Shown piece by piece: positions 1,409-49,766 of a stretch of DNA of 64,000 bases (positions are counted from its first letter, which is position 1; each line of letters begins with the position of its first letter). The DNA is from Candidatus Wallbacteria bacterium. GTDB lineage: Bacteria; Muiribacteriota; JAQTZZ01. The stretch lies in contig JAQTZZ010000018.1 of NCBI GenBank assembly GCA_028687545.1, forward strand, positions 1 to 64,000. The letters run 5' to 3'. Both the position numbers and the translations under genes were made by a program. The notes beneath the pieces were generated by a model. The model was given only the letters and a program-made list of their open reading frames with translations. It searched no databases and was not told the DNA's origin.

Positions 1409-1444
1409 TAACTTATTGTATCTTCATTGCTGGGGGGGCATTTC

Positions 1445-4186
1445 ATGAAAAAATATTTCGGATTCCTTTTAACGGTTCTTTTTATATCCAGCCTGAGCGC
1501 TAAAATCAATACTTTCAGCCGTTTCACGAAGGATGTGGAATTCAAAGCAGCCCAGAGTCAATGTCTGAAAGAAGGTGCGAAGTATACTGTAAACCCTGAT
1601 ACGATCACAGGGGATATCCCTCTGGAAAAACTTTGCGGCTTAAAAATACCCAAAAACATCAATCAGGACCTCAAAGACAACAAACTGGTTCTTCCCAGAC
1701 TCAAAGCAGCGCTGCCTCAGAAATTCGACTGGCGGGAAAAAGGTGGTGTCACAGCCTGCAAACATCAGGGAGAATGCGGATCCTGCTGGGCTTTTGCCTC
1801 AATCGGGGTGCTGGAAGCTGCGATCAAGATTAAAGACAAGCAGGAAGTCGATCTCTCAGAACAGGACCTGCTCTGCTGCAACCCCTGGGGTGATGGCTGC
1901 GGCGGAGGCTGGATCTCAGCCGTGAAGTTTTTCAAGACCGAAGGCGCTGCCCTGGAACGTGACTATCCATATCTGGGTTATGATGCTGAATGCAAAAACA
2001 GTATAAAACGTCCCTTTCGGATCAAAAGCTGCGGTTATATAGGAAATTCGGTCAGCGAAATCAAGCAGGCAATTCAAGAATACGGGCCTGTCTGTTCGGT
2101 TGTTGCTGCGGACAGGGTTTTTAAGCAGTACTCAGGCGGAATTTTCAATCATGATTCAATGAATGGCATCAACCATGCCATCATGCTTGTAGGCTGGGAC
2201 GATACTCTGGGTGAAAATGGTTGCTGGATACTAAAAAACTCATGGGGTACCCGCTGGGGTGAAAATGGCTTCATGAATATCGAATATGGCCGCTGCCAGG
2301 TGGGAGCTTCCAATGTTGCTGTTGTTTACGAAGGGAATCCTCCAGTATCACCGGACCCGGCTCCGACCCCTTCACCTGATCCAGCACCCAATCCAGCACC
2401 TGATCCATCACCCAATCCAGCACCTGGTCCATCACCCAATCCAGCACCCAGTCCTTCTCCTAATCCCGCACCTGATCCTTCCCCAGATCCAGTACCTGCT
2501 AAAAACGGCAGTGCCCGGGTGATGGCGGATGACGGCGGAAATCTTTCCAACAACGATGCCGGTATCTTCCGGGACGGCCTGAAAAACATCGGCTGGAAGA
2601 TCGAAAGTTTCCTGGAAAATTCTCAGGTCGAAAAAAAGTGTTTTAACCCTGAAACCCCTATAGATCTGGTATATTTCACAGGTCACGGTGCTCCAGGTTA
2701 TATTCATTTTGAAAACGGTGGAATCAACAGGGAAGAAGTGAGCGGAAAAAATGTCAAATATTTAATCAGTGCTACCTGCCTGACTGTCGCAGAAAACATC
2801 TGGAAGCAGAATTTCGGACAGGGTCTGAAATCTGTAATGGGCTACTATCAGACATCCTATGACGGCCCGGATGACGATGTGGCGTCAATTTTCACAAAAG
2901 CCATCAATGGTCTCAGTCCGGATGCAGATGTTACCCGGTATGTTTCAGCCTGGAAGAAAGCTAATCTTGAATCCAATGGAGGCCTTGAAGACCGCTGGAG
3001 TGCCCAGACAGCTGATAAATATTACTATGGTGGAGGAGGTCCGGATCCTGGACCTGCACCTAACCCGGCTCCAGCACCTAACCCGGCTCCAGCACCCAAC
3101 CCGGCTCCAGCACCCAACCCGGCTCCAGCACCCAACCCGGCTCCAGCACCCAACCCGGCGCCAGCGCCCAATCCAGCGCCTGCGCCCAATCCAGCGCCAG
3201 CACCCAATCCAGCACCTGCGCCCAATCCAGCGCCTGCGCCAAACCCGGCTCCAGCACCCAATCCAGCACCTGCGCCCAATCCAGCGCCTGCGCCAAACCC
3301 GGCTCCAGCACCCAACCCGGCGCCAGCGCCTGATCCAGCTCCAGCACCTAATCCTACTCCTGCACCGAGTACCAATATCAATGACATTATCCAGCAGATC
3401 CAGAATCTGATCAACAATCTGATCAATTCCGCCCGTGACATTGACAACCGTTGCTGTGTTGGAACCAAAGGAATGAAAACAGTACGTCTCACCGATAAAC
3501 TGAGCTATTCCTTCAATCTCGCCAAATCACAACCTGGCGAACTCCCCAGTTTCAAAGCTTCAGTCGATGAACAGGAAATCAGGAGACTCAGCGCTCTGCC
3601 ACGTGCCAAGAGCGGCAACACCACTCTGAGCGACTCAGGCAGATACCTTGCAGATCTGCCGGATTGTTTTAAGGCTTACCCGGACAATCCATTCAAAGTT
3701 TATTCAGATGCTGTCACATACATAGAAAACAATGGCGGTTTCCCAACCGACGCAGTGCTGGATTCTTTCTGCCCTGTCTTTGAAATTGATAATTCAGGCA
3801 ACAAGTCCATCCTCAATTATTTTCTGTCATTCAAAAGAGTCAGGGAAGGTTACGAGATATCAGGGACCAGGGGCGACTGCATCAGTCTACTGCTTGGAAA
3901 AGACGGAGTAATTCTTTACCAGCGTATCTGGCGGAAACTGGAAGAATTGCCTCCTGCAAAAAGTTATCTGATCGGGCCTGTGGCAGCCCTGACCAAGTCA
4001 GCGCAGGCGATTTCTTCCATGATCAAGGGAGACTGCCAGGTCAGCCTGACCGAATATTCGCTTGGTTTTTACTCTCCGCCTGGTGAAAAAACCGAGTCAA
4101 TCATCTTGAAACCGTGCTATCATTTTGCGGCAGCTGACGGTTACAAATTTCATGTGGACGCAGAGACTGGTGAACTGTTAAAATAA
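1445..4186 (+). CDS. Secreted multidomain protein: papain-like (C1A) protease + caspase-like module + Pro/Ala/Asn linker + C-terminal domain
   Basis: The chosen ATG follows a run of G (GGGGGGG) and starts a signal peptide (MKKYFGFLLTVLFISSLSA); an upstream in-frame TTG at 1427 is less likely. Domain order: signal peptide; short prosegment with IPLEKLCGLK; C1A protease with Gln/Cys in QGECGSCWAF (Cys114), His244 in INHAIM and Asn265 in LKNSWG; a Pro-rich linker (about 300-355); a caspase-like module with His414 in YFTGHGAPGY and Cys445 in SATCLT; about 17 copies of PAPNPA; then a C-terminal domain ending YKFHVDAETGELLK. The caspase-like plus C-terminal part closely matches the protein at 25809, which lacks the papain domain. 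DUF6345-like is my best family guess for the second module. Two different cysteine-protease folds on one secreted chain is unusual. Protease activity of the first domain is well supported; that of the second is inferred from the His/Cys pair. Confidence 0.9.
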   Translation: MKKYFGFLLTVLFISSLSAKINTFSRFTKDVEFKAAQSQCLKEGAKYTVNPDTITGDIPLEKLCGLKIPKNINQDLKDNKLVLPRLKAALPQKFDWREKGGVTACKHQGECGSCWAFASIGVLEAAIKIKDKQEVDLSEQDLLCCNPWGDGCGGGWISAVKFFKTEGAALERDYPYLGYDAECKNSIKRPFRIKSCGYIGNSVSEIKQAIQEYGPVCSVVAADRVFKQYSGGIFNHDSMNGINHAIMLVGWDDTLGENGCWILKNSWGTRWGENGFMNIEYGRCQVGASNVAVVYEGNPPVSPDPAPTPSPDPAPNPAPDPSPNPAPGPSPNPAPSPSPNPAPDPSPDPVPAKNGSARVMADDGGNLSNNDAGIFRDGLKNIGWKIESFLENSQVEKKCFNPETPIDLVYFTGHGAPGYIHFENGGINREEVSGKNVKYLISATCLTVAENIWKQNFGQGLKSVMGYYQTSYDGPDDDVASIFTKAINGLSPDADVTRYVSAWKKANLESNGGLEDRWSAQTADKYYYGGGGPDPGPAPNPAPAPNPAPAPNPAPAPNPAPAPNPAPAPNPAPAPNPAPAPNPAPAPNPAPAPNPAPAPNPAPAPNPAPAPNPAPAPNPAPAPNPAPAPDPAPAPNPTPAPSTNINDIIQQIQNLINNLINSARDIDNRCCVGTKGMKTVRLTDKLSYSFNLAKSQPGELPSFKASVDEQEIRRLSALPRAKSGNTTLSDSGRYLADLPDCFKAYPDNPFKVYSDAVTYIENNGGFPTDAVLDSFCPVFEIDNSGNKSILNYFLSFKRVREGYEISGTRGDCISLLLGKDGVILYQRIWRKLEELPPAKSYLIGPVAALTKSAQAISSMIKGDCQVSLTEYSLGFYSPPGEKTESIILKPCYHFAAADGYKFHVDAETGELLK
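3054..3366 (+). repeat. 18-bp tandem repeat encoding PAPNPA
   Basis: In-frame tandem units reading cca-gca-cct/ccc-aay-ccg-gct with third-base variation, about 17 units, encoding a stiff Pro/Ala/Asn linker between the caspase-like module and the C-terminal domain. A second, less regular block (PSPDPAPNPAPDPSPN type) lies at about 2345-2500. Confidence 0.9.
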
Positions 4187-6102: not shown

Positions 6103-6678
6103 TTGCGGATTTCAGAAGACAGCAGCATAGAAGAGCTCTGCAACATCTCAGCGATGCTCATTGACAAGAGCATCCACGATTTGCTGCAGGTCAGCTCAGA
6201 CTCTTTGCCGAAAAGCGTGGCCATTTATCATTACACACGTGCCATCCGCTATCTGGACGAAATCACCCTGCTCTGCAGCAAGGGTTTCTGCAGGGAACCG
6301 GAAGATCTCCTGAATGCGCTTTTAAATCTATATGTAACTATCCGCTGGCTGCTTTTTTTTAATCCCAAGCAGAGGATTCGCGATTTTATGCAGAACGAAT
6401 CCGGAAAAGCCTCCTCTGAAAAATGGCCTCAAAAAGATGCCAAAACAATGGCTGCTGAAATCGGTTACAGCCAGGAATATGAGAATTTCATGCTCGGGAT
6501 CTTTCTCTATCCGGGCAATGGAAAACACGCAGCGATTTCGGGGCAGGATCATGAGCAGCTCAGAAAAATGCTCAGAGCAGGGATCGAACTTTTCCTGGAA
6601 ATCAAGAAATACATCATGAAAATCCTTGAAATAACATGGGATCAGGCTCAGGAAATGGAGACCTTGAAATGCCTGTGA
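6103..6678 (+). CDS. DUF5677-like helical protein
   Basis: About 191 residues, cytoplasmic and almost entirely helical. The pattern of paired helices with RAIRYLDEITLLCSKGFCREPEDLL and LLNLYVTIRWLLFFNP resembles DUF5677, a family of unknown function. The start is a TTG 11 bases after AGGAAG; the first in-frame ATG (about 6154) would remove 17 residues and lacks such a site. Its 3' end overlaps the start of the TolB/ankyrin lipoprotein gene by 10 bases, so the two are probably translationally coupled. Confidence 0.6.
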   Translation: MRISEDSSIEELCNISAMLIDKSIHDLLQVSSDSLPKSVAIYHYTRAIRYLDEITLLCSKGFCREPEDLLNALLNLYVTIRWLLFFNPKQRIRDFMQNESGKASSEKWPQKDAKTMAAEIGYSQEYENFMLGIFLYPGNGKHAAISGQDHEQLRKMLRAGIELFLEIKKYIMKILEITWDQAQEMETLKCL

Positions 6679-8171
6679 AAGAGAAAGTACAGAAGATTTT
6701 TTTTCTGATTGCCGCAGCTGCGGTTTTAATGATACCCACAGGATGCGGAAAGCCCGAGCCTGCAGGTCAAATCCTGCCGGGTACGCAACAATCGCAGACC
6801 AACTGCCTGCTTTTCCTTGTCAAAGAAGGCGGAAGCCAGATTCTTCAGAAATATGATACTGTCACCGGGAGCTTTGAAAAGATCAATCTCAGCGGAACAC
6901 TCGACATGACCTCTCATCCTTGTGTTTTCGGGAGCAGACTTGTCTATTCCGCAACTGTTTCGGGTAAAACCGCGATCTTCTTTTCCGGCACCAGTGGAGC
7001 AGATCAGAAAAATGCTGCTGAAATGCCTGGCAGGAACTTTTATCCGAGTTTTTCCCCTGACGGCAAAAAAATTCTGTTCACTTCAGACAGGGACGGGAAT
7101 GAGGAAATATATCTGATGAACAGTGACGGAAGCAATCAGAAAAACCTGACTGGAAATCCGGCGAAAGACAACCTGTCAGTGTTTGCACCTGATGGAACTA
7201 AGATCGCCTTTGTCTCAAACCGGGATAAAAATTCAGAGATTTACCTGATGGATATTGACGGCGGCAATCAGAAAAGAATCACGAAAAACGATTTTCCGGA
7301 CGCTTTTCCCGTGTTTTCCCCTGACTGCTTAAGGATCGCATTTTTGAGCAAACAAAGCGGCAATTTCGACATTTTTTCCATGGCTCTGGACGGCAGCTCT
7401 CCCAAGCGTCTGACAGAAAATACGGATTTAGACGGATACCCTTTTTACAGCCCTGACGGAGGGATATTTTATGTTTCGAAACAGGCAGGTGCCACAGACA
7501 TCTGGCGCATGAACCAGGATGGAACAGATCAGCGGAAAATTACAGGCACAAGCCAGGATAAAATTTTATGCTGGGTAGGAATGATGCTTTCAGGAGAAAT
7601 CAGAGATCCACAGCCGGAATCCCGGCCTGCCACCAAGGAAATCGAGAAAACTGTGAAGAAAACCGTCAAAAAGAGTGCAGCTCTCTCGGAAACCGACAAG
7701 CTGCTTTTCGCAGCAATCCGCGCCAACGATGCCGCCACAGTAGAGACCGCCCTTAATTCAAGTGCCAACCCCAATTCCAGCGATTCCGGCTCTTCTCCGC
7801 TGTTCGCAGCTCTTTCCATGCGCAACCTGGAAATCGCGGATGCACTTGTCAAGAAAGGTGCTGATGTCAACTGCCCGCTGCATTTCGGCAATACTCCGCT
7901 GCTGTTTGCGCTGAGCTGGAACAACCTGGAAATTGTCAAATTCCTGATCGAGCGCGGCGCTGACGTGAATCAGCCCAACGATAACGGCACTACTCCGCTG
8001 ATTACCGCAGTCCAGCTTCACAAGCAGGACCTGATAGAAATCCTGATCTCAAAGGGAGCTGATCTCAATAAACGGGACGGCAAAGGCAAATCAGCGCTTG
8101 ACTATGCCAGAGACGGAAGTGACGATGCAATCGCCGCAATTTTAATCAAAGCCGGAGCCAAAGGAAATTGA
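6669..8171 (+). CDS. Lipoprotein with TolB-like beta-propeller and C-terminal ankyrin repeats
   Basis: The ATG at 6669 has GGAG eight bases upstream and gives MPVKEKVQKIFFLIAAAAVLMIPTGC, a lipoprotein signal with Cys26 as lipidation site. Residues about 40-310 hold at least five PD40/WD40-like blades of the TolB type (SPDGKKILFTSDRDGN-EEIYLMNSDGS, repeated with variation at about 43-residue intervals). A basic stretch (VKKTVKKSAAL) links to four ankyrin repeats (about 330-500; GADVNCPLHFGNTPL, GADVNQPNDNGTTPL, GADLNKRDGKGKSAL). TolB propellers normally act in the periplasm in envelope integrity; the fusion to ankyrin repeats is uncommon and suggests a protein-binding scaffold. An alternative ATG at 6636 is deeper inside the upstream gene. 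Confidence 0.88.
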   Translation: MPVKEKVQKIFFLIAAAAVLMIPTGCGKPEPAGQILPGTQQSQTNCLLFLVKEGGSQILQKYDTVTGSFEKINLSGTLDMTSHPCVFGSRLVYSATVSGKTAIFFSGTSGADQKNAAEMPGRNFYPSFSPDGKKILFTSDRDGNEEIYLMNSDGSNQKNLTGNPAKDNLSVFAPDGTKIAFVSNRDKNSEIYLMDIDGGNQKRITKNDFPDAFPVFSPDCLRIAFLSKQSGNFDIFSMALDGSSPKRLTENTDLDGYPFYSPDGGIFYVSKQAGATDIWRMNQDGTDQRKITGTSQDKILCWVGMMLSGEIRDPQPESRPATKEIEKTVKKTVKKSAALSETDKLLFAAIRANDAATVETALNSSANPNSSDSGSSPLFAALSMRNLEIADALVKKGADVNCPLHFGNTPLLFALSWNNLEIVKFLIERGADVNQPNDNGTTPLITAVQLHKQDLIEILISKGADLNKRDGKGKSALDYARDGSDDAIAAILIKAGAKGN

Positions 8172-27732: not shown

Positions 27733-27761
27733 TTGCATTCTTCCTTTTTAGCTTGTACTAT
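27733..27761 (+). promoter_or_regulatory. Predicted promoter of the carboxypeptidase gene
   Basis: TTGCAT (27733-27738), 17 bases, TACTAT (27756-27761), 39 bases before the ATG at 27800. Confidence 0.45.
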
Positions 27762-27799
27762 TGGTCTGTAGGTATTCAGATAAGAGTGCAGGAGGAAGT

Positions 27800-29116
27800 A
27801 TGCTCCGCTTTTTCGTGTTTATTTGTTTTTTCAGTCTTTTTTCAACGATCATCTCAGCTAAACCAGTAATCTTTATTCCTAATGACCAGACCAACGCTTT
27901 TTTTGCGCTTCCTCAGGATGAATTCGATGTTGCAGGCGCAAATTCCGAGGGCCTGACAGCGATCGTTACAGAAAACGGCATCAGGCAGTTGAAGCGCAAT
28001 GGAATCTATTTCAATACACTCAAGCAGGACATCGAGGAAATTTATACCCCGCTCAGGAACAGGGTCAACCGCGGAACGAGTTCCTATCATAAATATGATG
28101 CACTTGTAGCTGAACTGAAAAGCATTGCAGCGCAGCATTCAGAGATTGCCTCGCTTGAATCCATCGGCAAGTCCTGCCAGAATCGCGATATATATGCAAT
28201 CAAGATCACCGGCTCTTCCACTGCTGCAAGCAAACCGGCCATGCTGGTCTGCGGGCTTACCCATGCCAGAGAGTGGATTTCCATGGAAGTCCCGCTTGCG
28301 CTGATCAACAAACTTGTCAATAGTTACGGCAGCGACCAGGAGCTGACCAAGCTAGTCAATGAACGGACGGTCTGGGTTGTTCCGGTGATAAACCCGGATG
28401 GCCTGGTTTATACTCAGACAACTGGAGACTGGCGCAAGAATCGACGCGACAACAAGGACGGCACATTCGGAGTGGACCTGAACCGCAATGCTGACGCCAA
28501 ATGGGGAACTGCCGGAGACTCAGGCTCCACCTACAGCGACACCTATCGAGGGAAATCAGCTTTCTCGGAACCGGAACTGACGGCTTTGCGTGATCTTGCC
28601 AGACGCGAAAAAATGCAGTCCATGATTTCTTTCCACAGTTACGGCGAACTGGTTCTGTATCCCTGGGGTTACACCTCCAGCATCCATACCGCAGATGACG
28701 CAAAACTTTCCAAAATATCCAAGGACATGGCCAAGGAAAACAGCTATACACCTGAACAATCGGCAGATCTCTACCCGGCTTCTGGAGATTTCTGCGACTG
28801 GGCTTACATGGAGAATAAATGCTTTGCTTACACCATTGAGCTGGGCCAGGATTTCGTCCCGACCGATTCCGAAGTCCCTTCAATCTGCGACCAGAACGTG
28901 AAAACGTCGCTGGTACTGCTCAAAGCTACCGGCCAGACATCGCTTAACACGGAATCCAGCATTTCAGGGAATGACTGTGGGTATGAAACCGAACTCAACC
29001 AGACTCTGAAAAACCTTTTCCCTGACCAGGATCTGCAGGCACTTTCGAAAATAAATCCTGAACCTGCTGAGAATTTCGAAAAGATCAGCAAAATGACTGA
29101 TACAAGCGGATATTGA
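27800..29116 (+). CDS. Secreted M14 zinc carboxypeptidase
   Basis: The ATG at 27800, after GGAGG, gives signal peptide MLRFFVFICFFSLFSTIISA; 27761 is a spurious upstream extension. Catalytic features of the carboxypeptidase A family are intact: zinc ligands His155 and Glu158 in THAREWIS and His279 in MISFHSYGEL, substrate arginine in FGVDLNRNAD, the VINPDGLVY strand and the general base Glu347 in AYTIELGQ. A short propeptide-like region (20-100) precedes it. It probably trims C-terminal residues from peptides made by the neighbouring endoproteases; specificity is unknown. The tail after 370 is unassigned. Confidence 0.95.
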   Translation: MLRFFVFICFFSLFSTIISAKPVIFIPNDQTNAFFALPQDEFDVAGANSEGLTAIVTENGIRQLKRNGIYFNTLKQDIEEIYTPLRNRVNRGTSSYHKYDALVAELKSIAAQHSEIASLESIGKSCQNRDIYAIKITGSSTAASKPAMLVCGLTHAREWISMEVPLALINKLVNSYGSDQELTKLVNERTVWVVPVINPDGLVYTQTTGDWRKNRRDNKDGTFGVDLNRNADAKWGTAGDSGSTYSDTYRGKSAFSEPELTALRDLARREKMQSMISFHSYGELVLYPWGYTSSIHTADDAKLSKISKDMAKENSYTPEQSADLYPASGDFCDWAYMENKCFAYTIELGQDFVPTDSEVPSICDQNVKTSLVLLKATGQTSLNTESSISGNDCGYETELNQTLKNLFPDQDLQALSKINPEPAENFEKISKMTDTSGY

Positions 29117-39612: not shown

Positions 39613-40479
39613 ATGAAAGTCTGTATCCTTCTCTCTGTGATTCTGTTTTCACTGTTTTTGAACGTACCTACCGCTTCAGCCGAGGATCTGGTCGGCCTGC
39701 TGCAGAATTTGGCTATTACTGCCCAGCAGGAAGGTTCCCTGTACCAGGTTTCAACGAATGCGGCACCCAACGGCATTCCGCTGGATAAACTCTGCGGTTT
39801 GAAAAGACCCGACTATTGGGATGCAGTTGTGCATATGAGAAAAGCGCCTGTCGGGAAAGCGACTCTTCCAGCCCAATATGACTGGAGAGCGCAGAACGGC
39901 TGCACTCCTATCAAAAATCAAGGTTCCTGCGGCAGTTGCTGGTCATTCGCCTCTGTCGGAATCTTTGAATCTGCGATCCTGATCAAAGATTCTGATGTGG
40001 TCGACCTGGCTGAACAGGACTTGCTGGACTGCAACAGTTACGGTTACAGCTGCAACGGCGGATGGCTTGATGCCGTAGGTTACTTCAAGGACAAAGGTTG
40101 CTCCTTGGAGAAACTCGTGCCTTACCAGGCTGCAGACGGCACCTGCAAGAATGTTTCCCGCACATACAAGATCAAGGACTGGGCGACTGTCGATGCCACG
40201 ACTGACGCCATCAAGCAGGCAATCTACAAATACGGCCCGGTTTCCTCGGTCGTAGCCGCTGATTCCAGCTTCCAGTATTATACCAGCGGTGTATACAATC
40301 ACAGCTATTCCAGTGTCAATCACGCCATCATCCTGGTAGGCTGGGATGACAGTATGGGTAAGAAAGGCTGCTGGATCCTGAGAAACTCATGGGGTACAAG
40401 CTGGGGCGAAAAGGGCTATATGTACATCGAATACGGCTGCTCCAAAGTCGGATCAGATAATGTCTGCGTGACATATTGA
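39613..40479 (+). CDS. Secreted papain-like cysteine protease (C1A), tandem copy 1
   Basis: Signal peptide MKVCILLSVILFSLFLNVPTASA. A short prosegment with QQEGSLYQVSTNAAPNGIPLDKLCGLKRPDY replaces the usual ERFNIN-type propeptide. The protease is complete: Gln103 and Cys109 in NQGSCGSCWSFAS, His237 in VNHAIILVGW and Asn258 in RNSWGTSWGEKGY; the DLAEQDLLDCN and GYSCNGGW segments carry the disulfide cysteines. 288 residues, with little after the catalytic domain. GGAG precedes the ATG. Very similar to the next two genes, so a tandem duplication. Likely acts outside the inner membrane. Confidence 0.95.
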   Translation: MKVCILLSVILFSLFLNVPTASAEDLVGLLQNLAITAQQEGSLYQVSTNAAPNGIPLDKLCGLKRPDYWDAVVHMRKAPVGKATLPAQYDWRAQNGCTPIKNQGSCGSCWSFASVGIFESAILIKDSDVVDLAEQDLLDCNSYGYSCNGGWLDAVGYFKDKGCSLEKLVPYQAADGTCKNVSRTYKIKDWATVDATTDAIKQAIYKYGPVSSVVAADSSFQYYTSGVYNHSYSSVNHAIILVGWDDSMGKKGCWILRNSWGTSWGEKGYMYIEYGCSKVGSDNVCVTY

Positions 40480-40504
40480 TTCTGATGCTTTGAACTGAAA
40501 CTAT

Positions 40505-40528
40505 AGGAGGCCGACAGGCCTCCTTTTT
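40505..40528 (+). terminator. Intrinsic terminator
   Basis: AGGAGGCC-GACA-GGCCTCCT followed by TTTT, 25 bases after the first tandem protease gene. Confidence 0.85.
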
Positions 40529-40581
40529 CATATCCATTTATTAATCATAGCTTGAATTGTGTGATGGGAATCTGGTGCAAA

Positions 40582-40610
40582 ACAATTTGTTGCACAATTG
40601 TAACTTTACA
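40582..40610. promoter_or_regulatory. Operator/promoter element, copy 2
   Basis: ACAATTTGT (40582-40590), tgc, ACAATTGT (40594-40601), then the TTGTAACTTTACA block shared with copy 1; a GATAAT -10 follows at 40626-40631 (15-base spacing, short). Confidence 0.5.
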
Positions 40611-40664
40611 GGAACAGTTTTATGAGATAATGTGGATACAGAAAAATGAAAAGGAGAATTGTGC

Positions 40665-41528
40665 ATGAAAGTTTTTAGCTTGCTTCTCATCTTTCTTTTT
40701 ACTCTGCTTCAAAACACCCCGGCTGCAGCTGATGACCTGGTCAACCTTTTGCAGGATCTGGCTTTGGTGGCCGAGCAGGAAGGTTCCATGTACAAAGTTT
40801 CTGCAGATGCAGCTCCCAAAGGGATTCCTCTGGAAACTCTGTGCGGATTACAGAGGCCTGATTACGCTGATGCCATTGAACATATGAGAAAACTGACCCT
40901 CGAAAAAGAAGCGCTTCCCGATAAATTTGACTGGAGAACCCAGAATGCCTGCACCCCGATCAAGAATCAGGGATCGTGCGGCAGCTGCTGGGCCTTTTCC
41001 TCTGTAGGAATTTTTGAGTCAGGGATAGCGATCAAGGATGCTGTGGTCGTGGACCTCTCAGAGCAGGATCTGCTTGATTGCAACGGCATGGGATATAGCT
41101 GCAAGGGCGGCTGGCTGGATGCTCTGAAGTATTTCAAAGATAAAGGTTGCGCAGACGAGAAAACCGTGCCTTATCAGGCAGCAGTCGGCAAATGTAAAAA
41201 TGTGGAACGCTCATATAAAATCAAGGACTGGGCGACTGTAAATCCTACAACTGATGAGATCAAGCTGGCCATCTTCAAATACGGTCCTGTCTCATCGGAT
41301 GTAGCGGCTGACTCCAGCTTTCAGTATTACTCCAGCGGAGTTTATAACCACAATTACACCAAAATCAACCATGCAATTATTCTGGTGGGATGGGACGATA
41401 CGATGGGCAAGAAAGGCTGCTGGATCTTGAGGAACTCGTGGGGTTCGAGCTGGGGTGACAAAGGCTATATGTATATCGAATATGGTTGTTCCAAAGTCGG
41501 CAATGACGTTGTCTGCCTGACATACTAG
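40665..41528 (+). CDS. Secreted papain-like cysteine protease (C1A), tandem copy 2
   Basis: The ATG at 40665 lies 8 bases after AAGGAG (the ORF extends to a TTG at 40659). Signal peptide MKVFSLLLIFLFTLLQNTPAAA; prosegment with GIPLETLCGLQRPDY; catalytic Cys108 in NQGSCGSCWAFSS, His236 in INHAIILVGW, Asn257 in RNSWGSSWGDKGY. The mature domain is close to copy 1 along its whole length. It has its own promoter and terminator pair, so copies are transcribed separately. Confidence 0.95.
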   Translation: MKVFSLLLIFLFTLLQNTPAAADDLVNLLQDLALVAEQEGSMYKVSADAAPKGIPLETLCGLQRPDYADAIEHMRKLTLEKEALPDKFDWRTQNACTPIKNQGSCGSCWAFSSVGIFESGIAIKDAVVVDLSEQDLLDCNGMGYSCKGGWLDALKYFKDKGCADEKTVPYQAAVGKCKNVERSYKIKDWATVNPTTDEIKLAIFKYGPVSSDVAADSSFQYYSSGVYNHNYTKINHAIILVGWDDTMGKKGCWILRNSWGSSWGDKGYMYIEYGCSKVGNDVVCLTY

Positions 41529-41819
41529 TACATTGTAAACTATGTTTCATGTGACGGCAGGTTCTATGCAAGAAGTTGGTAAGTTAGTAGGTTTGTAAGT
41601 TTGTATGTTGGAAAACATTGATTACGGTCTACTAGCGGACCGTAATCGAAGATCCTCTGCACTGCGAAGCGGGACTGTGTATAAAAGCAAAAGGAGACCT
41701 CTGGTCTCCTTTTTTGAGTTATCCACGGTTGATGCATTTTGATGTTTTTTGATGCTTTACATGATCATCAACCCGGAGTAATATTATAAAGTAAGTATAT
41801 AAGGAAAGGAGCATTGAGA
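41529..41819. other. Intergenic region with a second hairpin and low-complexity stretch
   Basis: About 290 bases with no gene. It contains a G/T-rich run (ttggtaagttagtaggtttgtaagtttgtatg, near 41573-41610), a perfect 10-bp hairpin (GATTACGGTC...GACCGTAATC, 41621-41648, 8-base loop, no T tail), the terminator at 41689 and promoter-like TTTACA (41756-41761) with an A/T-rich region downstream. Confidence 0.6.
41689..41715 (+). terminator. Intrinsic terminator
   Basis: AAAAGGAGACC-TCT-GGTCTCCTTTTTT, a strong stem with T tract, 160 bases after tandem copy 2. Confidence 0.85.
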
Positions 41820-42692
41820 ATGAAAGTCTGTATCTTACTCTCTGTATTTCTGTTCTCTCTTTTTCTGAGCATCCAGCCTGCTGCAGCTGATGACCTGGTA
41901 GGTCTCGTGCAAAACCTGGCGATACTAGCCGAGCAGGAAGGTTCCTTGTACACTGTTTCGATGGATGCTGCACCCAAGGGAATACCTCTGGCAACTCTCT
42001 GCGGCTTCAAACGGCCAGACTATGCAGATGGTCTCATGCACATGAGAAAACTGACGGTTAAAAACGACCTGAAACTTCCCGCCACTTTCGACTGGAGAGC
42101 CCAGAACGGCACCACGCCGGTCAAAAATCAAGGATCCTGCGGAAGCTGCTGGGCATTCGGCTGCGTCGGTATATTCGAGTCAGCGATTGCCATCAAGGAC
42201 AGTGCGATCATCGATCTTTCAGAGCAGGACCTGCTGGACTGCAATACGCAGGGCTATTCCTGCGACGGCGGTTACATTGATGCACTCCAGTACTTCAAGG
42301 AAAAAGGCTGCGCAGACGAAAAGACAATCCCTTATCAGCAGGCTCAGAAACAGTGCCGCGATGTGGCACGAACTTATAAAATCAAAGATTGGTCCGCGGT
42401 TGACAGCAATGAGGCTGCGGTCAAGCAGGCTATTTATACCTATGGCCCGATCGTAACCGGCGTGACTGCGGATTTCAGCTTCCAGTTTTACTCCGGCGGT
42501 GTTTACAACCACAACAACACCGGTGAAATGAATCATGCAGTGATCCTTGTGGGATGGGATGATACTAAGGGCAAGAAAGGCTGCTGGATCATGAAGAATT
42601 CATGGGGCGCGAGCTGGGGCGATAAAGGTTACATGTACATTGAATACGGCTGCTCCCATATCGGGACAGAAAGCACTTGCGTTAATTACTGA
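41820..42692 (+). CDS. Secreted papain-like cysteine protease (C1A), tandem copy 3
   Basis: The ATG at 41820 follows AAGGAG. Signal peptide MKVCILLSVFLFSLFLSIQPAAA, nearly that of copy 1. Prosegment with GIPLATLCGFKRPDY; catalytic NQGSCGSCWAFGC (an extra Cys replaces Ser after the helix start), MNHAVILVGW and MKNSWGASWGDKGY. Slightly longer than copy 2 (KNDLKLPATF; GEMNHAV insert). Its upstream region lacks the palindromic operator of copies 1 and 2. Confidence 0.95.
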   Translation: MKVCILLSVFLFSLFLSIQPAAADDLVGLVQNLAILAEQEGSLYTVSMDAAPKGIPLATLCGFKRPDYADGLMHMRKLTVKNDLKLPATFDWRAQNGTTPVKNQGSCGSCWAFGCVGIFESAIAIKDSAIIDLSEQDLLDCNTQGYSCDGGYIDALQYFKEKGCADEKTIPYQQAQKQCRDVARTYKIKDWSAVDSNEAAVKQAIYTYGPIVTGVTADFSFQFYSGGVYNHNNTGEMNHAVILVGWDDTKGKKGCWIMKNSWGASWGDKGYMYIEYGCSHIGTESTCVNY

Positions 42693-42712: not shown

Positions 42713-42748
42713 AAATCCGGGGAACTTGACTGTTCCCCGGATTTTTTT
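42713..42748 (+). terminator. Intrinsic terminator
   Basis: Perfect 13-bp stem AAATCCGGGGAAC / GTTCCCCGGATTT with a 6-base loop and T7, after tandem protease copy 3. Confidence 0.9.
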
Positions 42749-42872: not shown

Positions 42873-45800
42873 ATGAAAAAGTGCTCGGTCTGTGAAACCG
42901 AAAATAAAAAGAATCTACAGTTCTGTTCTGGATGTGGGTACAGTCTGATCCTGGATAAAAAACACATCTCAGAACAGCTGGATGATCTGTCTCTGTTGTT
43001 CGCCTGCCTGGAATGCCCCAGTAAACCTGAAGTCCTCGAACGCCATGCCGACTCCATTCTGGAGAAGCTTACCACCATCATCAAAGGTGACCAGGGTGAT
43101 ATCCTGATCTTTGACGGCAAACTGGTTTTTGCCGTTTTCGGGCGTGACAAGCAGCTGGATTTTGACCCCATCTTTGCCTGTTATTCAGCCATGAAGATTC
43201 AGGATTCAGTGAATGATTACAACCGCCACGATTCAGACTTCAAATCTCACCGTCTCTCCTGCCGAATCATTGTTTCCACCGGCCTTGATCTCAAGACGCT
43301 CACTCCAGACATCTCTGAGATCATCCGTCATAAACAGCGCGTTCTACAGCTGATAGAGAGCTGCTCGATCCCTGGAGAAATTCTCACTTCAAATGGCCTG
43401 GTGTCATCCCTGAAAGGTAGATTCGTGCTGGAAATGATGGAACCCCTCACAGTCAGAAATTCCTCGGTGGACATGTTCATGCTCAAGGGCAAAGCTGCTC
43501 TCAACGAACCCAGGAAAATCTGCCCTTATTGCGGATCTGAAAACCCGGATGTCTATTTTTGTCCCAGTTGCGGCCAGAAAATCGCTCCAGTGCAGTCCGA
43601 ACTCTTTGAAGAGCTCAAACAGCTGACAGTCCTGTACGCTGAAATAAATGATTCCTCTGCCCAGCCGGAAGATGCAACTAAATACAAATCCCTGGGTAAG
43701 ATTTTCCAGGCTTTGCGTAAAATCATTGAGGACGAAGAGGGTACTGTAATCCGATTCGAGCGGAATTCCCTGAGAGCCGCTTTTGGCCTGGAAAAAAGCA
43801 CGGATATGGATCCTCAGCATGCCAGTTATGCCGCACTGAAAATGCACGAGATGATCATTGAAATCAAGGAAAAACTGCGCTCCCTGATCAGCCCGGGCCT
43901 GTCGCTCTCTGTCGGCATCCATTCCGGCAAAGTCGGAAAAGGATTCATCGGAAATACGTTCGACATCATCGGTCTCGCAAAGGAAATTGCAGTGAGGTTC
44001 GGGCAGAATGCCGGTCCGGGTAAAACCCTGATCAGCCTCGAACTAGGGCGTCAGCTCAAGGGCAGATTCATACTGAAACCTTACAATCAGATCACAGTCA
44101 GCGAAAATCTGAAAATGCCTTCCTTTCACTTGATCGGCAAGGAGAAAGTCAGGATGCGGAGAGTGCTGGGAAATTATCCGGACTTTGTAGGCAGGCGTAA
44201 AGAACTGGAATACTGCATCAAGAAATTTCATGAGACAGTCGACAGCGGTAACCCTCATCTGACGATCATCAGCGGCACTGCAGGTATCGGAAAGAGCAGA
44301 TTACTGCTTGAATTTGAGCAGTATTGTCACAAATCAGAGCTGACAATCTTTGTTTCCAGATGTTTTCTGAATCCGACAGTCGCCAATAACTATCATGTCT
44401 TTAAAGTCTATCTCCTTTCACGGGTTAAAAAGAAGAATGAAGCAGATCTCCTGAATTACCTGCAGAAAATCATGCCTGACTTTGAACAGGAAAAACTGGC
44501 GGAATATGCCAAAGTATTTTCCTGCCTGCTCGGATTCGAATACCAGGAAACAGATGCCATCAAATTGCTGAGAGAAAATCCGGAATTCTTAGCAAGAATG
44601 GCTTTTAAGGGCTTTGAGGATCTTTTCACTACGATCAGCTCTAAAAACCCGATCCTCTTTTTGGTGGAAGACTTTCATTTTGTAGATGAGGGTTCCCTGA
44701 ATCTGATCAGCCATCTGCTGAAATGGGTACATGGTAAATTGTTCTTCCTCTGCAATGCGCGCCCCGAATGGCATGACAGGAAACAGGAACTGCCTGAAGA
44801 ACGATTCTCTGAACGGGCTCTGCATGAACTGGAAAAACCCCTGATCCGCAGGATGGTGGAAAACATCCTCAGCAAAGCCGATTCAATTCCAGAACGGATT
44901 TTCCAGGTGATTGAGGAAATTTCGCTGGGAAATCCATTTTACATCGAGGAATTGATCATTTCCCTCAATGAAAAAGGCATTATCCGTGAAGTGGGAAACA
45001 AGCTCTTAATAAATGCTGATGAGATTGATACCCTGGAAATTCCTGCTTCACTGGAAATGCTGATCCAGGCAAGGCTCGAACATCTTGGCAAAGATGTGAT
45101 CAGATTTCTTAAAAAGGCTTCAGTTTTCGGGAGACGATTCTCGCTGGAAGGAATCGCCAGTCTGGAAAAAACACTTCATGTGAAAGACCTTCTGAATCTC
45201 TGCGTGGATAAAAGCATCATCATGCAGGATCAGGCCACCAAATTTGATCAGCAGAATCAATATAAATTCACTCACGAAATCATTCACGATGTCATCTACA
45301 ATAAACTGACAGGCATCCAGAAGATCGAACTGCATGGGAAAGCCGCCTCCTGGCTGGAACTCCAGCTGGATCCAGGTGAAACCGAAACCCTGCGTCACGC
45401 TGAGCTTTATCAGCAACTTTATTATCATTATGATAAAGCCCAGAATTCCGGGAAGATTACACTTTATGCCGCTCTTTCCGGGAGAATGGCATACAGCCAT
45501 TATCAGAACGGGGAAGCTCTCAAGTATTTTAGAATTGTGGAGTCCTGCCTGAAAAAAACACCCGGCCTGCTTCCAGAAGACCAGCTGATAAAATTTCTGG
45601 AGACATATGCTGAAGCCATGGACATTGCCGGTGAAAACGCCGAAATGGTTGAAATCATCAATTATTTTCTAAGTAAATTCAACTTTGACGCTGAGAATTA
45701 CAGCAGACTGATTCTGAAAAAACTTAATGCCTGCCACTTGCTGTCGGATGTGGAAACCTGGTCGACTCTCCTCGATTCTCTGGAGGAATTCTCTCTGAAA

Positions 45801-46595
45801 AAGCTTAGCGATCTTAAAAGCTACGGCTGGTTCAAAGCCAGGATCCTCGAAAACCGGGGTGGACTCTGCTGGCAGAAAGGACTGTATGACGAAGCCATGA
45901 AATTCAACTGCCAGGCACTTGAAATCAACCAGGAAATAGGAGACCGCAAGGGCGAAGCCAAATGCCTTCACAACATCGGACTCTGTTATCACAACCGCTG
46001 CGATTATGACAAGGCTCTTGATTACTATCTGCAGGCCCTGCGCGTCAATGAGGAAACAGGAGACATAATCGGTCTGGCCAAGTCACTCAACAATCTGGGA
46101 TTGATCCAATCAGAGCGCAGCGACTATCAGAAAGCCCGGGAATATTACCTCAAATCGCTGGACCTGCATGAAAAGATCGGAAATCGGATCGGCATCGCCA
46201 ACGCATACAACAACATGGGAATGAACTGCATCAATACAGGCAAATACGACGAAGCACTGCCTTATCTTGAACACGCAAGTGAAATCTACAACGAGATCGG
46301 GGACGAGCTTTCAGTGGCATATGTCCTGAACAACATTGGTGAAGTCTTCCATTTCAAGGGAGACCCGGACCGGGCCCTGGAATGTTACCGTGAATCTTTG
46401 AATATCAAAGAAGAACTGGGCGACATCTGGGCGGCAGCTTATACTCTGTATTACATGGGACTGGCTTACAAAGCAAAGAACGACCCCGACTCAGCGCTCA
46501 CCCACTTTCAGCGCTCACTCCGGATCAGAAAAGAAATCGGCGATAAGAGGGGCATTGAGCTGACCGAGAAAGCGATTTCGGAATTTAAAAATTGA
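42873..46595 (+). CDS. Zinc ribbon / two degenerate cyclase domains / AAA ATPase / TPR regulator
   Basis: Start at 42873 (GGGG 6 bases upstream; ATG 42867 is two codons earlier). Order: zinc ribbon CSVCETENKKNLQFCSGCG (residues 4-22); first class III cyclase-like domain (about 38-200); second ribbon CPYCGSENPDVYFCPSCG (about 215-232); second cyclase-like domain (about 245-420); AAA/STAND-type ATPase with Walker A GTAGIGKSR (468-476) and Walker B ILFLVEDFH; winged-helix-like and helical linker; TPR repeats (about 1000-1235; CLHNIGLCYHNRCDYDKALDYY and relatives). The metal-binding aspartates expected at the strand-1 site are not seen (LLFACLE, VLYAEIN), so both cyclase domains probably bind but do not convert nucleotides. 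Likely a cytoplasmic signalling hub. Its stop overlaps the next ORF. Confidence 0.9.
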   Translation: MKKCSVCETENKKNLQFCSGCGYSLILDKKHISEQLDDLSLLFACLECPSKPEVLERHADSILEKLTTIIKGDQGDILIFDGKLVFAVFGRDKQLDFDPIFACYSAMKIQDSVNDYNRHDSDFKSHRLSCRIIVSTGLDLKTLTPDISEIIRHKQRVLQLIESCSIPGEILTSNGLVSSLKGRFVLEMMEPLTVRNSSVDMFMLKGKAALNEPRKICPYCGSENPDVYFCPSCGQKIAPVQSELFEELKQLTVLYAEINDSSAQPEDATKYKSLGKIFQALRKIIEDEEGTVIRFERNSLRAAFGLEKSTDMDPQHASYAALKMHEMIIEIKEKLRSLISPGLSLSVGIHSGKVGKGFIGNTFDIIGLAKEIAVRFGQNAGPGKTLISLELGRQLKGRFILKPYNQITVSENLKMPSFHLIGKEKVRMRRVLGNYPDFVGRRKELEYCIKKFHETVDSGNPHLTIISGTAGIGKSRLLLEFEQYCHKSELTIFVSRCFLNPTVANNYHVFKVYLLSRVKKKNEADLLNYLQKIMPDFEQEKLAEYAKVFSCLLGFEYQETDAIKLLRENPEFLARMAFKGFEDLFTTISSKNPILFLVEDFHFVDEGSLNLISHLLKWVHGKLFFLCNARPEWHDRKQELPEERFSERALHELEKPLIRRMVENILSKADSIPERIFQVIEEISLGNPFYIEELIISLNEKGIIREVGNKLLINADEIDTLEIPASLEMLIQARLEHLGKDVIRFLKKASVFGRRFSLEGIASLEKTLHVKDLLNLCVDKSIIMQDQATKFDQQNQYKFTHEIIHDVIYNKLTGIQKIELHGKAASWLELQLDPGETETLRHAELYQQLYYHYDKAQNSGKITLYAALSGRMAYSHYQNGEALKYFRIVESCLKKTPGLLPEDQLIKFLETYAEAMDIAGENAEMVEIINYFLSKFNFDAENYSRLILKKLNACHLLSDVETWSTLLDSLEEFSLKKLSDLKSYGWFKARILENRGGLCWQKGLYDEAMKFNCQALEINQEIGDRKGEAKCLHNIGLCYHNRCDYDKALDYYLQALRVNEETGDIIGLAKSLNNLGLIQSERSDYQKAREYYLKSLDLHEKIGNRIGIANAYNNMGMNCINTGKYDEALPYLEHASEIYNEIGDELSVAYVLNNIGEVFHFKGDPDRALECYRESLNIKEELGDIWAAAYTLYYMGLAYKAKNDPDSALTHFQRSLRIRKEIGDKRGIELTEKAISEFKN

Positions 46596-48619
46596 GAACA
46601 GACATGCCCAATCCCGGAGCGGAAAGCGAAAACACATTCGGATCGGATAATCTGCGCCGTTTTGTGGCTGACACTAAGATATCCGACGAGCAGAAATTCG
46701 AGAAATTGAAGTCTGTAGTCCTCAACGACTCTGATCCTTATGTCAGGGCAATGGCCCGCAAATATCTGGAGCTGCTCAGCCGTCACATGGAGAAAAAAGC
46801 TCCGCCTCAGACCACAGTTCAACCTGATTCACCTAAAACCGATATCGCAAAAACACTCAGATCCGGCAATCCCCAGGAGAAAATCTCCTTCCTCAAAGAA
46901 GTGCTGGCGAATCAGGTGGAACTGCCACGCTATCTGCTTTTTGAAACAATCGGAAAAGAACGGGACCCGTTTGTGCTCGCTACACTGATCAGCTGCGTAG
47001 GACGCTTTGGAACAGCCGACGATGGCGATCAACTCAGCCCTTTTTTCAATCACAAGGACCCTAGAGTCAAGGCAAATACAATTGAAGCCGCCCGGCAGCT
47101 CAAATCTGAAAAAATCTACAAACTGATCGTCCCGCTTCTTCAGGATGCTGATCCTCGTGTCAAGGCAAATGCAGCAGGTTTTTTTTCAAAATCCGGACTG
47201 AACCTTACTCTGCATATCATGGAAGAGATGGTGCTGTCAGGCGACAGGCCCCAGCTTGAATCGGCAATTTTCGCGCTTTCCCACATACCGGACGGGAAGT
47301 CAAAAGACCTCCTCAATCAAGCCCGGAAAATATTATCATCGCTCGATAAACCGGGCGCTCAGCCGGACGGGGGTGCATCAGAAGCAGTGTTTGATGACGG
47401 TTTCTCTCCTGCCGCTCTTGAGTTGCCAGCTGAGCCGCCTGTTCAAATTGCGGCTCCGCGACCCGCAGTTAATCAATCTAACCGCATGATTTACGCGATT
47501 ATTGGCTGCGTGGTAATTCTGATCTGTGCCTGCTACGCTTTATTCAACACGGAATCTCCACCAGAACCTACGGTGATTCTGCCGGTCAAACCGGAAAAAC
47601 CCCAGCCAGTTCAGCCTGATGCTGCTGCCACGCGCCCAGCCCTGACAATCGAAAACACGGTTGAACCCAAAGCAGCAGCGCTGAAAAATGCGAATCTGGA
47701 AGCGGCACCTGATTATTACCTGAAAGGTAAAGATGCTCTGCTGCAGGGAAACAACGATCTGGGGTTGTCTTACTTTTCAAAGGCTCTGGCTGAAATCCGC
47801 ACTTCAAAGGCCTATCTGCTCCGCGGTCTGATACTGCAGCGTACCGGGAAATACAGGAACGCGAGATCCGATTTTTCTGGTGCTTTTGAGCTCAGCCCAG
47901 CCTTGAGAGATTCGCTGTTCTCAACACACCTGGATACTCCGGAAATCATCGTCAAACCATCTACTGTGGAAATTCTGACAGCCTGTCTCAGTTCAGGAGT
48001 GGCTTTTTTTCTTGATAACTATGAATCCAGCGCATACAGGACCGGAAAATACGCTTTGGACACTGCCATTACCGCCGAAAATGCCATTGAATTCCATGAA
48101 CGGGGGCTTGAATTTCTTAGAAAAGGTAAATTCCGCGAAGCCCTGCGTGATTTCAGCCGTGCCATTGAAATTTACCCCATGTTCTCCCAGGGTTATGCGT
48201 CAAGGGGATTGACCTGCCTGAAACTCAATGATTCCACCCAGGCTCTGACTGATCTCAATAAAGCTATTGAATTCAACCCCAAGCTTGCAGAGTCGTATTA
48301 TGCAAGAAGCCGCTATTATGCCAGCTTCGGCAATCTGGATTCAGGAATTTCGGACTGCACTTCTGCTTTATCGCTGCGTCCTGGCGCAACAGGAGAAGTA
48401 CTCTGCCATTATCTAAGGGGAGAATTGTTTCTGCGCAAGGGAAAATTCAAAGAAGCGCTCAAGGATCTCAACTGCGCCATCGGCATGGATCCGGACTTCG
48501 GACCTGCCTATGTGCTGCGCAGCAGGGTGGATTCCTTGCAGGGAGATTCCGGCAAAGCCAAACAGGATCTGAGGTTTTCAGCAGACCTTCTGTACCCGGT
48601 AAAAAAAGAAAATGAGTAA
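46592..48619 (+). CDS. HEAT-repeat / transmembrane / TPR protein
   Basis: Either the TTG at 46592 (overlapping the preceding stop) or the ATG at 46604 is the start; neither site is strong. Cytoplasmic N-terminus with HEAT repeats (about 60-240; DPRVKANTIEAARQLKSEKIYKLI and DPRVKANAAGFF), one membrane helix (about 295-314; MIYAIIGCVVILICACYALF), a Pro-rich stretch, then extracytoplasmic TPRs (about 370-660; EFHERGLEFLRKGKFREALRDFSRAIEIYP). It connects the cytoplasmic regulator upstream to the secreted peptidase downstream in the same operon. Confidence 0.88.
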   Translation: MRTDMPNPGAESENTFGSDNLRRFVADTKISDEQKFEKLKSVVLNDSDPYVRAMARKYLELLSRHMEKKAPPQTTVQPDSPKTDIAKTLRSGNPQEKISFLKEVLANQVELPRYLLFETIGKERDPFVLATLISCVGRFGTADDGDQLSPFFNHKDPRVKANTIEAARQLKSEKIYKLIVPLLQDADPRVKANAAGFFSKSGLNLTLHIMEEMVLSGDRPQLESAIFALSHIPDGKSKDLLNQARKILSSLDKPGAQPDGGASEAVFDDGFSPAALELPAEPPVQIAAPRPAVNQSNRMIYAIIGCVVILICACYALFNTESPPEPTVILPVKPEKPQPVQPDAAATRPALTIENTVEPKAAALKNANLEAAPDYYLKGKDALLQGNNDLGLSYFSKALAEIRTSKAYLLRGLILQRTGKYRNARSDFSGAFELSPALRDSLFSTHLDTPEIIVKPSTVEILTACLSSGVAFFLDNYESSAYRTGKYALDTAITAENAIEFHERGLEFLRKGKFREALRDFSRAIEIYPMFSQGYASRGLTCLKLNDSTQALTDLNKAIEFNPKLAESYYARSRYYASFGNLDSGISDCTSALSLRPGATGEVLCHYLRGELFLRKGKFKEALKDLNCAIGMDPDFGPAYVLRSRVDSLQGDSGKAKQDLRFSADLLYPVKKENE

Positions 48620-49766
48620 CCTGCGCTTCTGTAAGTTTTGTTGTTTTTTTCTGCTGGCGATTTTACAATGCTCCAGCCTGTGGGCCGAATCTCCTGAATG
48701 CTTCATCTGCGGGACTGTCATCCAAGGGGAGTATTACACTTTTGAGAAAGACGGGGATAGGGAAAACCTGAAAGTCTGCCAGAACTGTTATCAGAATTGC
48801 CTGCGTTGCGAACTGTGCAAAATCCCGCTCAAAAAAGCTGTCGGCTTCGACGGTCACAACTATTGCGATTCATGCTATCAGAAACTGCAGGAGCGGCCAT
48901 CCTGTACTCTCTGTGGAGCTCTGCTGCCTGGTCAATATATGGATTTCACGGATCCGGCAACAGAAAAGCATTCTTATTACTGTCCGGAATGCGTGAAAAA
49001 CTTTAAAAAATGCCAGGCCTGCGGCCGGCCTTCCCGAAATCTCAGCCAGACCGGGCTCTATCTTTTATGTGACAGGTGTCTGGAAACGGTAAAATATTGT
49101 CACAGCTGCGGACTTCCACTGATCAAGGAATCATATAAATACGAGATCTTCGATTATTCCTACTGCCGGGAATGCGAACAAAGCTCACGCTGCAGTGTCT
49201 GCGGACTCCCTGCAGGAAAATCCGGGACTTTACTTTCAGATGGAAGAGCCATCTGTCCGGACTGCTCCAAAACCCAAGTAACCGACATTCAGGAAGTCAG
49301 GCGAGTTTACGCCCTGGTGTCAGGATTCTTATCCAAAACCTATTCCATGAATATCGCTGAGCTCAACAGGCTTGAATTTGCAAGCCTTTCAGACCTGAAA
49401 ACAATGGCCTCAGTGCTCAATTACATTAAGAAGGACGCAGTTCCGTTAGGCATCTTTTCCGAAGCAGGCGGCAAAACCGACATTTTCGTCCAGTCCAGCC
49501 TGCCGAGAAAACTGCTCGCTGGAGTGCTGGCCCATGAATACACCCACGATTTTATCCATACTGTCAATCCTGGGTTTTCAGATATCGAGATCGAGGAAGG
49601 GATCTGTGAATGGGTGCGCTGGCAGGTGCTCCGCCAGATCGGCGACGAAAAGGGCTGTATTCTCATGGAGCATCAGGAAGGTGTTTACAGCAGCGGATTC
49701 AGTAAAGTCAGGGCAGCGGCTGAAAAAGGCGGATATTCTTCTGTCTTTGATTTGTTCAGGAAGTAA
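48612..49766 (+). CDS. Secreted LIM-like zinc-finger / DA1-type metallopeptidase
   Basis: Overlaps the upstream gene by 8 bases. Signal peptide MSNLRFCKFCCFFLLAILQCSSLWA. Residues about 28-215 carry five or six CxxC-type zinc ribbons in LIM-like spacing (CFICG..CQNCYQNCLRCELCK..CDSCYQ..CTLCG..CPECVKNFKKCQACG, then more). The C-terminal domain has HEYTH (308-312) and EEGICEW from 328, the DA1-like zinc-peptidase signature. In plants DA1 pairs LIM and peptidase domains; bacterial relatives are mostly uncharacterised. The predicted export is unusual for a zinc-ribbon protein. Ends before the ComM gene. Confidence 0.9.
   Translation: MSNLRFCKFCCFFLLAILQCSSLWAESPECFICGTVIQGEYYTFEKDGDRENLKVCQNCYQNCLRCELCKIPLKKAVGFDGHNYCDSCYQKLQERPSCTLCGALLPGQYMDFTDPATEKHSYYCPECVKNFKKCQACGRPSRNLSQTGLYLLCDRCLETVKYCHSCGLPLIKESYKYEIFDYSYCRECEQSSRCSVCGLPAGKSGTLLSDGRAICPDCSKTQVTDIQEVRRVYALVSGFLSKTYSMNIAELNRLEFASLSDLKTMASVLNYIKKDAVPLGIFSEAGGKTDIFVQSSLPRKLLAGVLAHEYTHDFIHTVNPGFSDIEIEEGICEWVRWQVLRQIGDEKGCILMEHQEGVYSSGFSKVRAAAEKGGYSSVFDLFRK

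Follow-up and report, generated by a model that had tools for sequence, protein, structure and literature searches.

Do three adjacent genes of Candidatus Wallbacteria form a path by which a signal leaves the cytoplasm and reaches the cell surface, or are they known kinds of protein that lie side by side? The question arises in a 64-kb window of contig JAQTZZ010000018.1 (the window being the whole stretch of DNA that was analysed), where an earlier note had proposed such a path from three successive products. These are a protein with two zinc ribbon/pseudo-cyclase units, an AAA_16/STAND ATPase and TPRs, here called the hub, a scaffold with HEAT repeats and TPRs separated by a transmembrane segment (TM), and a peptidase combining a LIM-like array with a DA1-type active site (Table 1). 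The domain set described in that note agrees with our Pfam, alignment and motif results.

Table 1. Positions of the genes, domains and signals discussed, numbered along the window
Feature	Position	Strand	Basis or remarks
Intrinsic-terminator-like hairpin	42713..42744	+	13-pair stem, T tail; between upstream papain-type protease gene and hub
Hub, 1240 aa: zinc ribbon - pseudo-cyclase 1 - zinc ribbon - pseudo-cyclase 2 - AAA_16/STAND ATPase - TPR	42873..46595	+	ORF list; Pfam, catalytic-position alignment, domain 1 homology, TOMM_kin_cyc below cut-off
Pseudo-cyclase 1	42957..43520	+	Metal Asp positions are Cys and Lys; Asn-Arg pair lost
Pseudo-cyclase 2	43593..44150	+	First metal Asp replaced by Glu, second by Asn; transition-state Asn lost, Arg kept
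Walker A GTAGIGKS of hub AAA_16, intact	44274..44297	+	Sequence
Scaffold: HEAT (predicted cytoplasmic) - TM - TPR (predicted extracytoplasmic)	46604..48619	+	ORF list; Pfam HEAT_2 and TPR, TM prediction
LIM-like array plus DA1-type metallopeptidase, predicted exported, 384 aa	48612..49766	+	ORF list; signal peptide; PF12315; LIM-array and weak M61-peptidase fold matches
HEYTH-X15-EE zinc-peptidase active site, residues 308-329	49533..49598	+	Sequence; motif as in plant DA1

Gene order, transcript and surroundings

The three genes had been described as overlapping, and their reading frames, order, shared strand and near-overlaps are as claimed; a hub/scaffold overlap (4 nt) exists only if the scaffold starts at TTG 46592, and the better in-frame start, ATG 46604, lies 8 nt past the hub stop. 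Scaffold and peptidase genes share 8 nt (ATGAGTAA). For the hub we take ATG 42873, which has AGGGG just 5′ of it, the mechanical ORF opening at GTG 42795. Close spacing together with the terminator-like hairpin just upstream makes a single transcript for the trio plausible. Short gaps are common here, 16 of the 39 same-strand neighbor pairs in the window being separated by 20 nt or less, so the spacing says little about functional linkage. The next gene downstream is yifB-like (TIGR00368) and starts about 157 nt past the peptidase gene. A promoter scan returned 19 sites against 14 expected, and no promoter is therefore claimed; searches of the 64-kb window for RNA families and tRNAs found none.

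Peptidase genes are numerous around the trio, with four of the C1 (papain) type, one of the gingipain type (C25) and one M14 in the 64 kb, so an exported peptidase at this locus is unremarkable. Three of the papain-type cysteine protease genes stand in tandem at 39613-42692, are mutually similar and carry N-terminal signals; the first and the third are each followed by a terminator-like hairpin. These three genes were considered as members of the trio's transcription unit and rejected, because the hairpin at 42713-42744 intervenes. The others are a C1 gene with DUF6345 (1427-4186), the C25 gene (15719-17746) and the M14 carboxypeptidase gene (27761-29116). Positions 6636-8171 encode a protein with a PD40 beta-propeller, ankyrin repeats and a hydrophobic segment at its N-terminus.

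The scaffold and the exported peptidase

In the scaffold, HEAT_2 and TPR profiles fall on either side of a single hydrophobic segment at residues 300-318 (counted from TTG 46592), and the protein has no signal peptide. Arg before this segment and acidic residues after it suggest an N-in/C-out topology, and with the N-terminal signal of the peptidase the inside-to-outside layout put forward earlier stands as a prediction. The HEAT part has matches in every one of the 40 genomes compared across the phylum and in 31 places of its own genome; for the TM-TPR half, no full-length relative was found in the six genomes searched. The closest HEAT-TM protein of the one same-family genome in the comparison (G002) is a HEAT-zinc ribbon-TM-ankyrin protein (L041:1-1959) that ends in ankyrin repeats rather than TPRs, so the HEAT-TM-repeat layout recurs with a different outside part.

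The third gene carries an N-terminal hydrophobic signal peptide, followed by about a dozen CxxC/H motifs that precede an intact HExxH-X15-EE site; the plant DA1 motif is HEMMH-X15-EE, and bacterial relatives are known in Roseiflexus (PMC5322733). The DA1-like profile PF12315 recognizes it marginally, at 27.4 bits for a cut-off of 25. All five aligned relatives match the same model; a relative scoring 22.7 lies below the cut-off. Its LIM score in Pfam is 14.8 bits against a cut-off of 22.9, a PDB sequence search gave weak LIM-like matches only, and Pfam reported no ubiquitin-interacting motif. The predicted model (mean pLDDT 76) has PINCH1 LIM4-5 as its best fold match (E 1.4e-4, low TM-score) and, weakly, an M61 aminopeptidase as a second (E 0.04), a pattern that fits a LIM array joined to a gluzincin.

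Six of the 40 genomes, the trio's own included, hold DA1 relatives, and these fall in two families. A single-sequence scan of genome contigs gave no match, an alignment-based scan recovered the four relatives of family f8 only, and none was found in plasmids. Those four (L047-L050, from Candidatus Wallbacteria GWC2_49_35, ADurb.Bin243, UBA6123 and JPNA_metabat.86) have N-terminal hydrophobic signals, a longer array and an active site of the form HExxH-X15-DE.

Linkage in related genomes

If the trio were a conserved system, its genes should travel together. The comparison set of 40 genomes contains one of the same family, G002, and none of the same genus. In G002, whose assembly is fragmented (510 contigs), the trio is dispersed over three contexts. 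The hub orthologue (L012; 45% over 763 aa, its N-terminus cut off by a contig end) has a PEGA protein gene directly after it, and the DA1 gene (L031) sits between RlmL-type methyltransferase and kinase-WD40 genes. In this DA1 relative (L031:1767-2900) an in-frame stop interrupts the active site and the second zinc-site His is altered, through either decay or an assembly error. In the four f8 genomes (L032-L035) the neighborhood is different again, the DA1 gene lying between genes for a TPR membrane protein and a thiamine pyrophosphokinase on one side and a DUF4350 gene on the other. Long, strong hub matches occur in G037, where genes for VIT-VWA and TPR proteins come after the hub relative, and none of comparable length and strength is found in G036, G038 or G039, so that three of the four f8 genomes have DA1 without a close hub. 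Among the 40 genomes searched, no other genome that holds a part of the trio has the three-gene order.

The earlier note had itself named loss of co-conservation as what would undo its proposal, and since the genes are not co-conserved, the claim of a system, and with it that of a linked signalling path to the cell surface, fails on its own terms. With relatives keeping the trio apart, the locus appears to be a local grouping of already known kinds of protein and not a new signalling pathway. We put at about 70% the probability that these are three functionally independent kinds of protein that are adjacent and probably co-transcribed, each expanded or conserved separately in the lineage. The 8-nt spacing, the 8-nt overlap and the terminator just upstream count against this reading, since they would fit a real operon, and the inside-membrane-outside gene set is suggestive in the same direction.

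The peptidase-rich surroundings could be taken to mean that the region is centred on proteolysis, with the DA1 protein joining the nearby papain-type, C25 and M14 enzymes and with the hub and scaffold regulating or supporting protein export or degradation in general. We consider this unlikely, because the trio is set off from the last papain gene by a terminator and the DA1 genes of relatives do not lie beside such peptidase genes.

Since the comparison set has no genome of the same genus, a young signalling operon peculiar to this lineage retains some small probability. Under this scenario the pseudo-cyclase STAND protein would switch when its ligand binds and dock on the cytoplasmic HEAT half of the scaffold, whose outer TPRs would recruit or activate a latent exported DA1 peptidase. 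Gene spacing, the upstream terminator and the predicted topology would all suit such an operon, as would the behavior of the plant DA1 peptidase, a latent enzyme that partners activate (PMC5322733). We nevertheless think it quite unlikely, given that the order occurs in no other genome of the phylum holding a part, that three DA1-bearing genomes have no close hub and that no full-length relative of the scaffold's TM-TPR half turned up in the six genomes searched. Its more specific form is very unlikely: a trans-envelope switch confined to this lineage, where a STAND protein bearing twin pseudo-cyclase sensors acts through the HEAT-TM-TPR linker to control a latent exported LIM-DA1 peptidase. 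Were the pathway real, it would represent inside-out peptidase control of a new type.

A tandem pseudo-cyclase in the hub

Pfam matches the hub to Guanylate_cyc, AAA_16 (45.2 bits against a cut-off of 32.6), zinc ribbons and TPRs, PF00211 recognizing cyclase domain 2 and Pfam missing domain 1. The first 216 residues are homologous to residues 217-426 (27%, E 3e-22) and also to a site-intact zinc ribbon-cyclase paralogue from the same genome (27%, E 2e-27), from which we conclude that a single zinc ribbon/cyclase unit has been copied in tandem at the N-terminus. By sequence homology both cyclase domains are class III cyclase-like; the predicted model of pseudo-cyclase 1 (mean pLDDT 45) is too poor for use. 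Catalytic positions were read from an alignment with the solved adenylate cyclase 4p2m and paralogues. This alignment bears out the observation that both domains lack the catalytic aspartates: both metal-binding Asp are lost in each, as is the transition-state Asn, with the Arg remaining in domain 2 only. Both Asp and the Asn-Arg pair are kept in L039 (same genome), L042 and L043 (G002) and L044 (G037), and the simplest reading is that the degeneration in the hub is derived. The paralogue at L039:157-3738 is a zinc ribbon-cyclase-AAA-TPR protein with an intact catalytic site. Another protein of the same genome (L040:7501-12039) is a Ser/Thr kinase-cyclase-AAA-TPR protein that resembles TOMM kinase/cyclase fusions, and its cyclase is degenerate.

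Continued synthesis of a cyclic nucleotide by the hub is very unlikely. It could arise in a heterodimer formed with one of the intact paralogues of the genome, such as L039, or through domain 2, where Glu replaces the first metal Asp and the transition-state Arg is kept, but domain 2 lacks the second metal Asp and the Asn and domain 1 lacks both Asp.

The ATPase motifs are intact (Walker A, and Walker B as LFLVED), and with the AAA_16 profile and C-terminal TPRs they place the hub among STAND/AAA_16 NTPases with TPRs. If the three proteins are independent, as we prefer, the hub would be a cytoplasmic STAND-type switch whose TPRs sense a partner or ligand and whose AAA_16 NTPase toggles the switch, and the duplicated zinc ribbon/cyclase unit, having lost catalysis, may serve as a platform for nucleotide binding or for protein docking and dimerisation, with no cAMP production. 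The scaffold would be one among many HEAT-repeat adaptors of this genome. The third protein would be an exported zinc peptidase, kept latent or targeted by its LIM-like array and acting on proteins of the envelope or outside. Should nothing beyond the parts hold up, the locus is still a clear example of catalysis lost in a tandem cyclase-STAND protein and retained by paralogues, and it adds an exported branch, in the Ca. Wallbacteria group, of LIM-DA1 peptidases, a kind studied mainly in plants.

Comparison with known systems

The earlier note could match the locus to no described system; this does not extend to its parts, because both tandem cyclase-AAA proteins and LIM-DA1 peptidases have been described before. 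In the full-length soluble adenylyl cyclase of mammals (sAC, ADCY10), a predicted STAND/P-loop region comes after two N-terminal cyclase domains (PMC12802110), and the hub likewise has two cyclase domains and then a STAND-type P-loop, a likeness at the level of shared domain families and architecture. The hub differs in having a zinc ribbon before each cyclase unit, clear C-terminal TPRs and degeneration of both cyclase domains. A protein of Rhizobium sp. CB3171 (WP_283054448.1) also combines two cyclase domains with AAA_16 and aligns over hub residues 74-856 at 24%, but its cyclase motifs look intact in both domains, and no zinc ribbon or TPR profile was found in it. The hub shares its cyclase-AAA core with the TOMM kinase/cyclase fusions of TIGR03903 (E 2.3e-49), although it scores 168 bits against a cut-off of 706 and lacks the kinase domain that its paralogue L040 has. 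The third gene resembles the DA1 family (PF12315; plant DA1 and the Roseiflexus relatives) in its LIM-like zinc motifs followed by HExxH-X15-EE and departs from it in its marginal profile score, predicted export and longer zinc-finger array. The tandem cyclase-STAND architecture is thus already known, and the double catalytic loss, as read from the alignment, is the variant.
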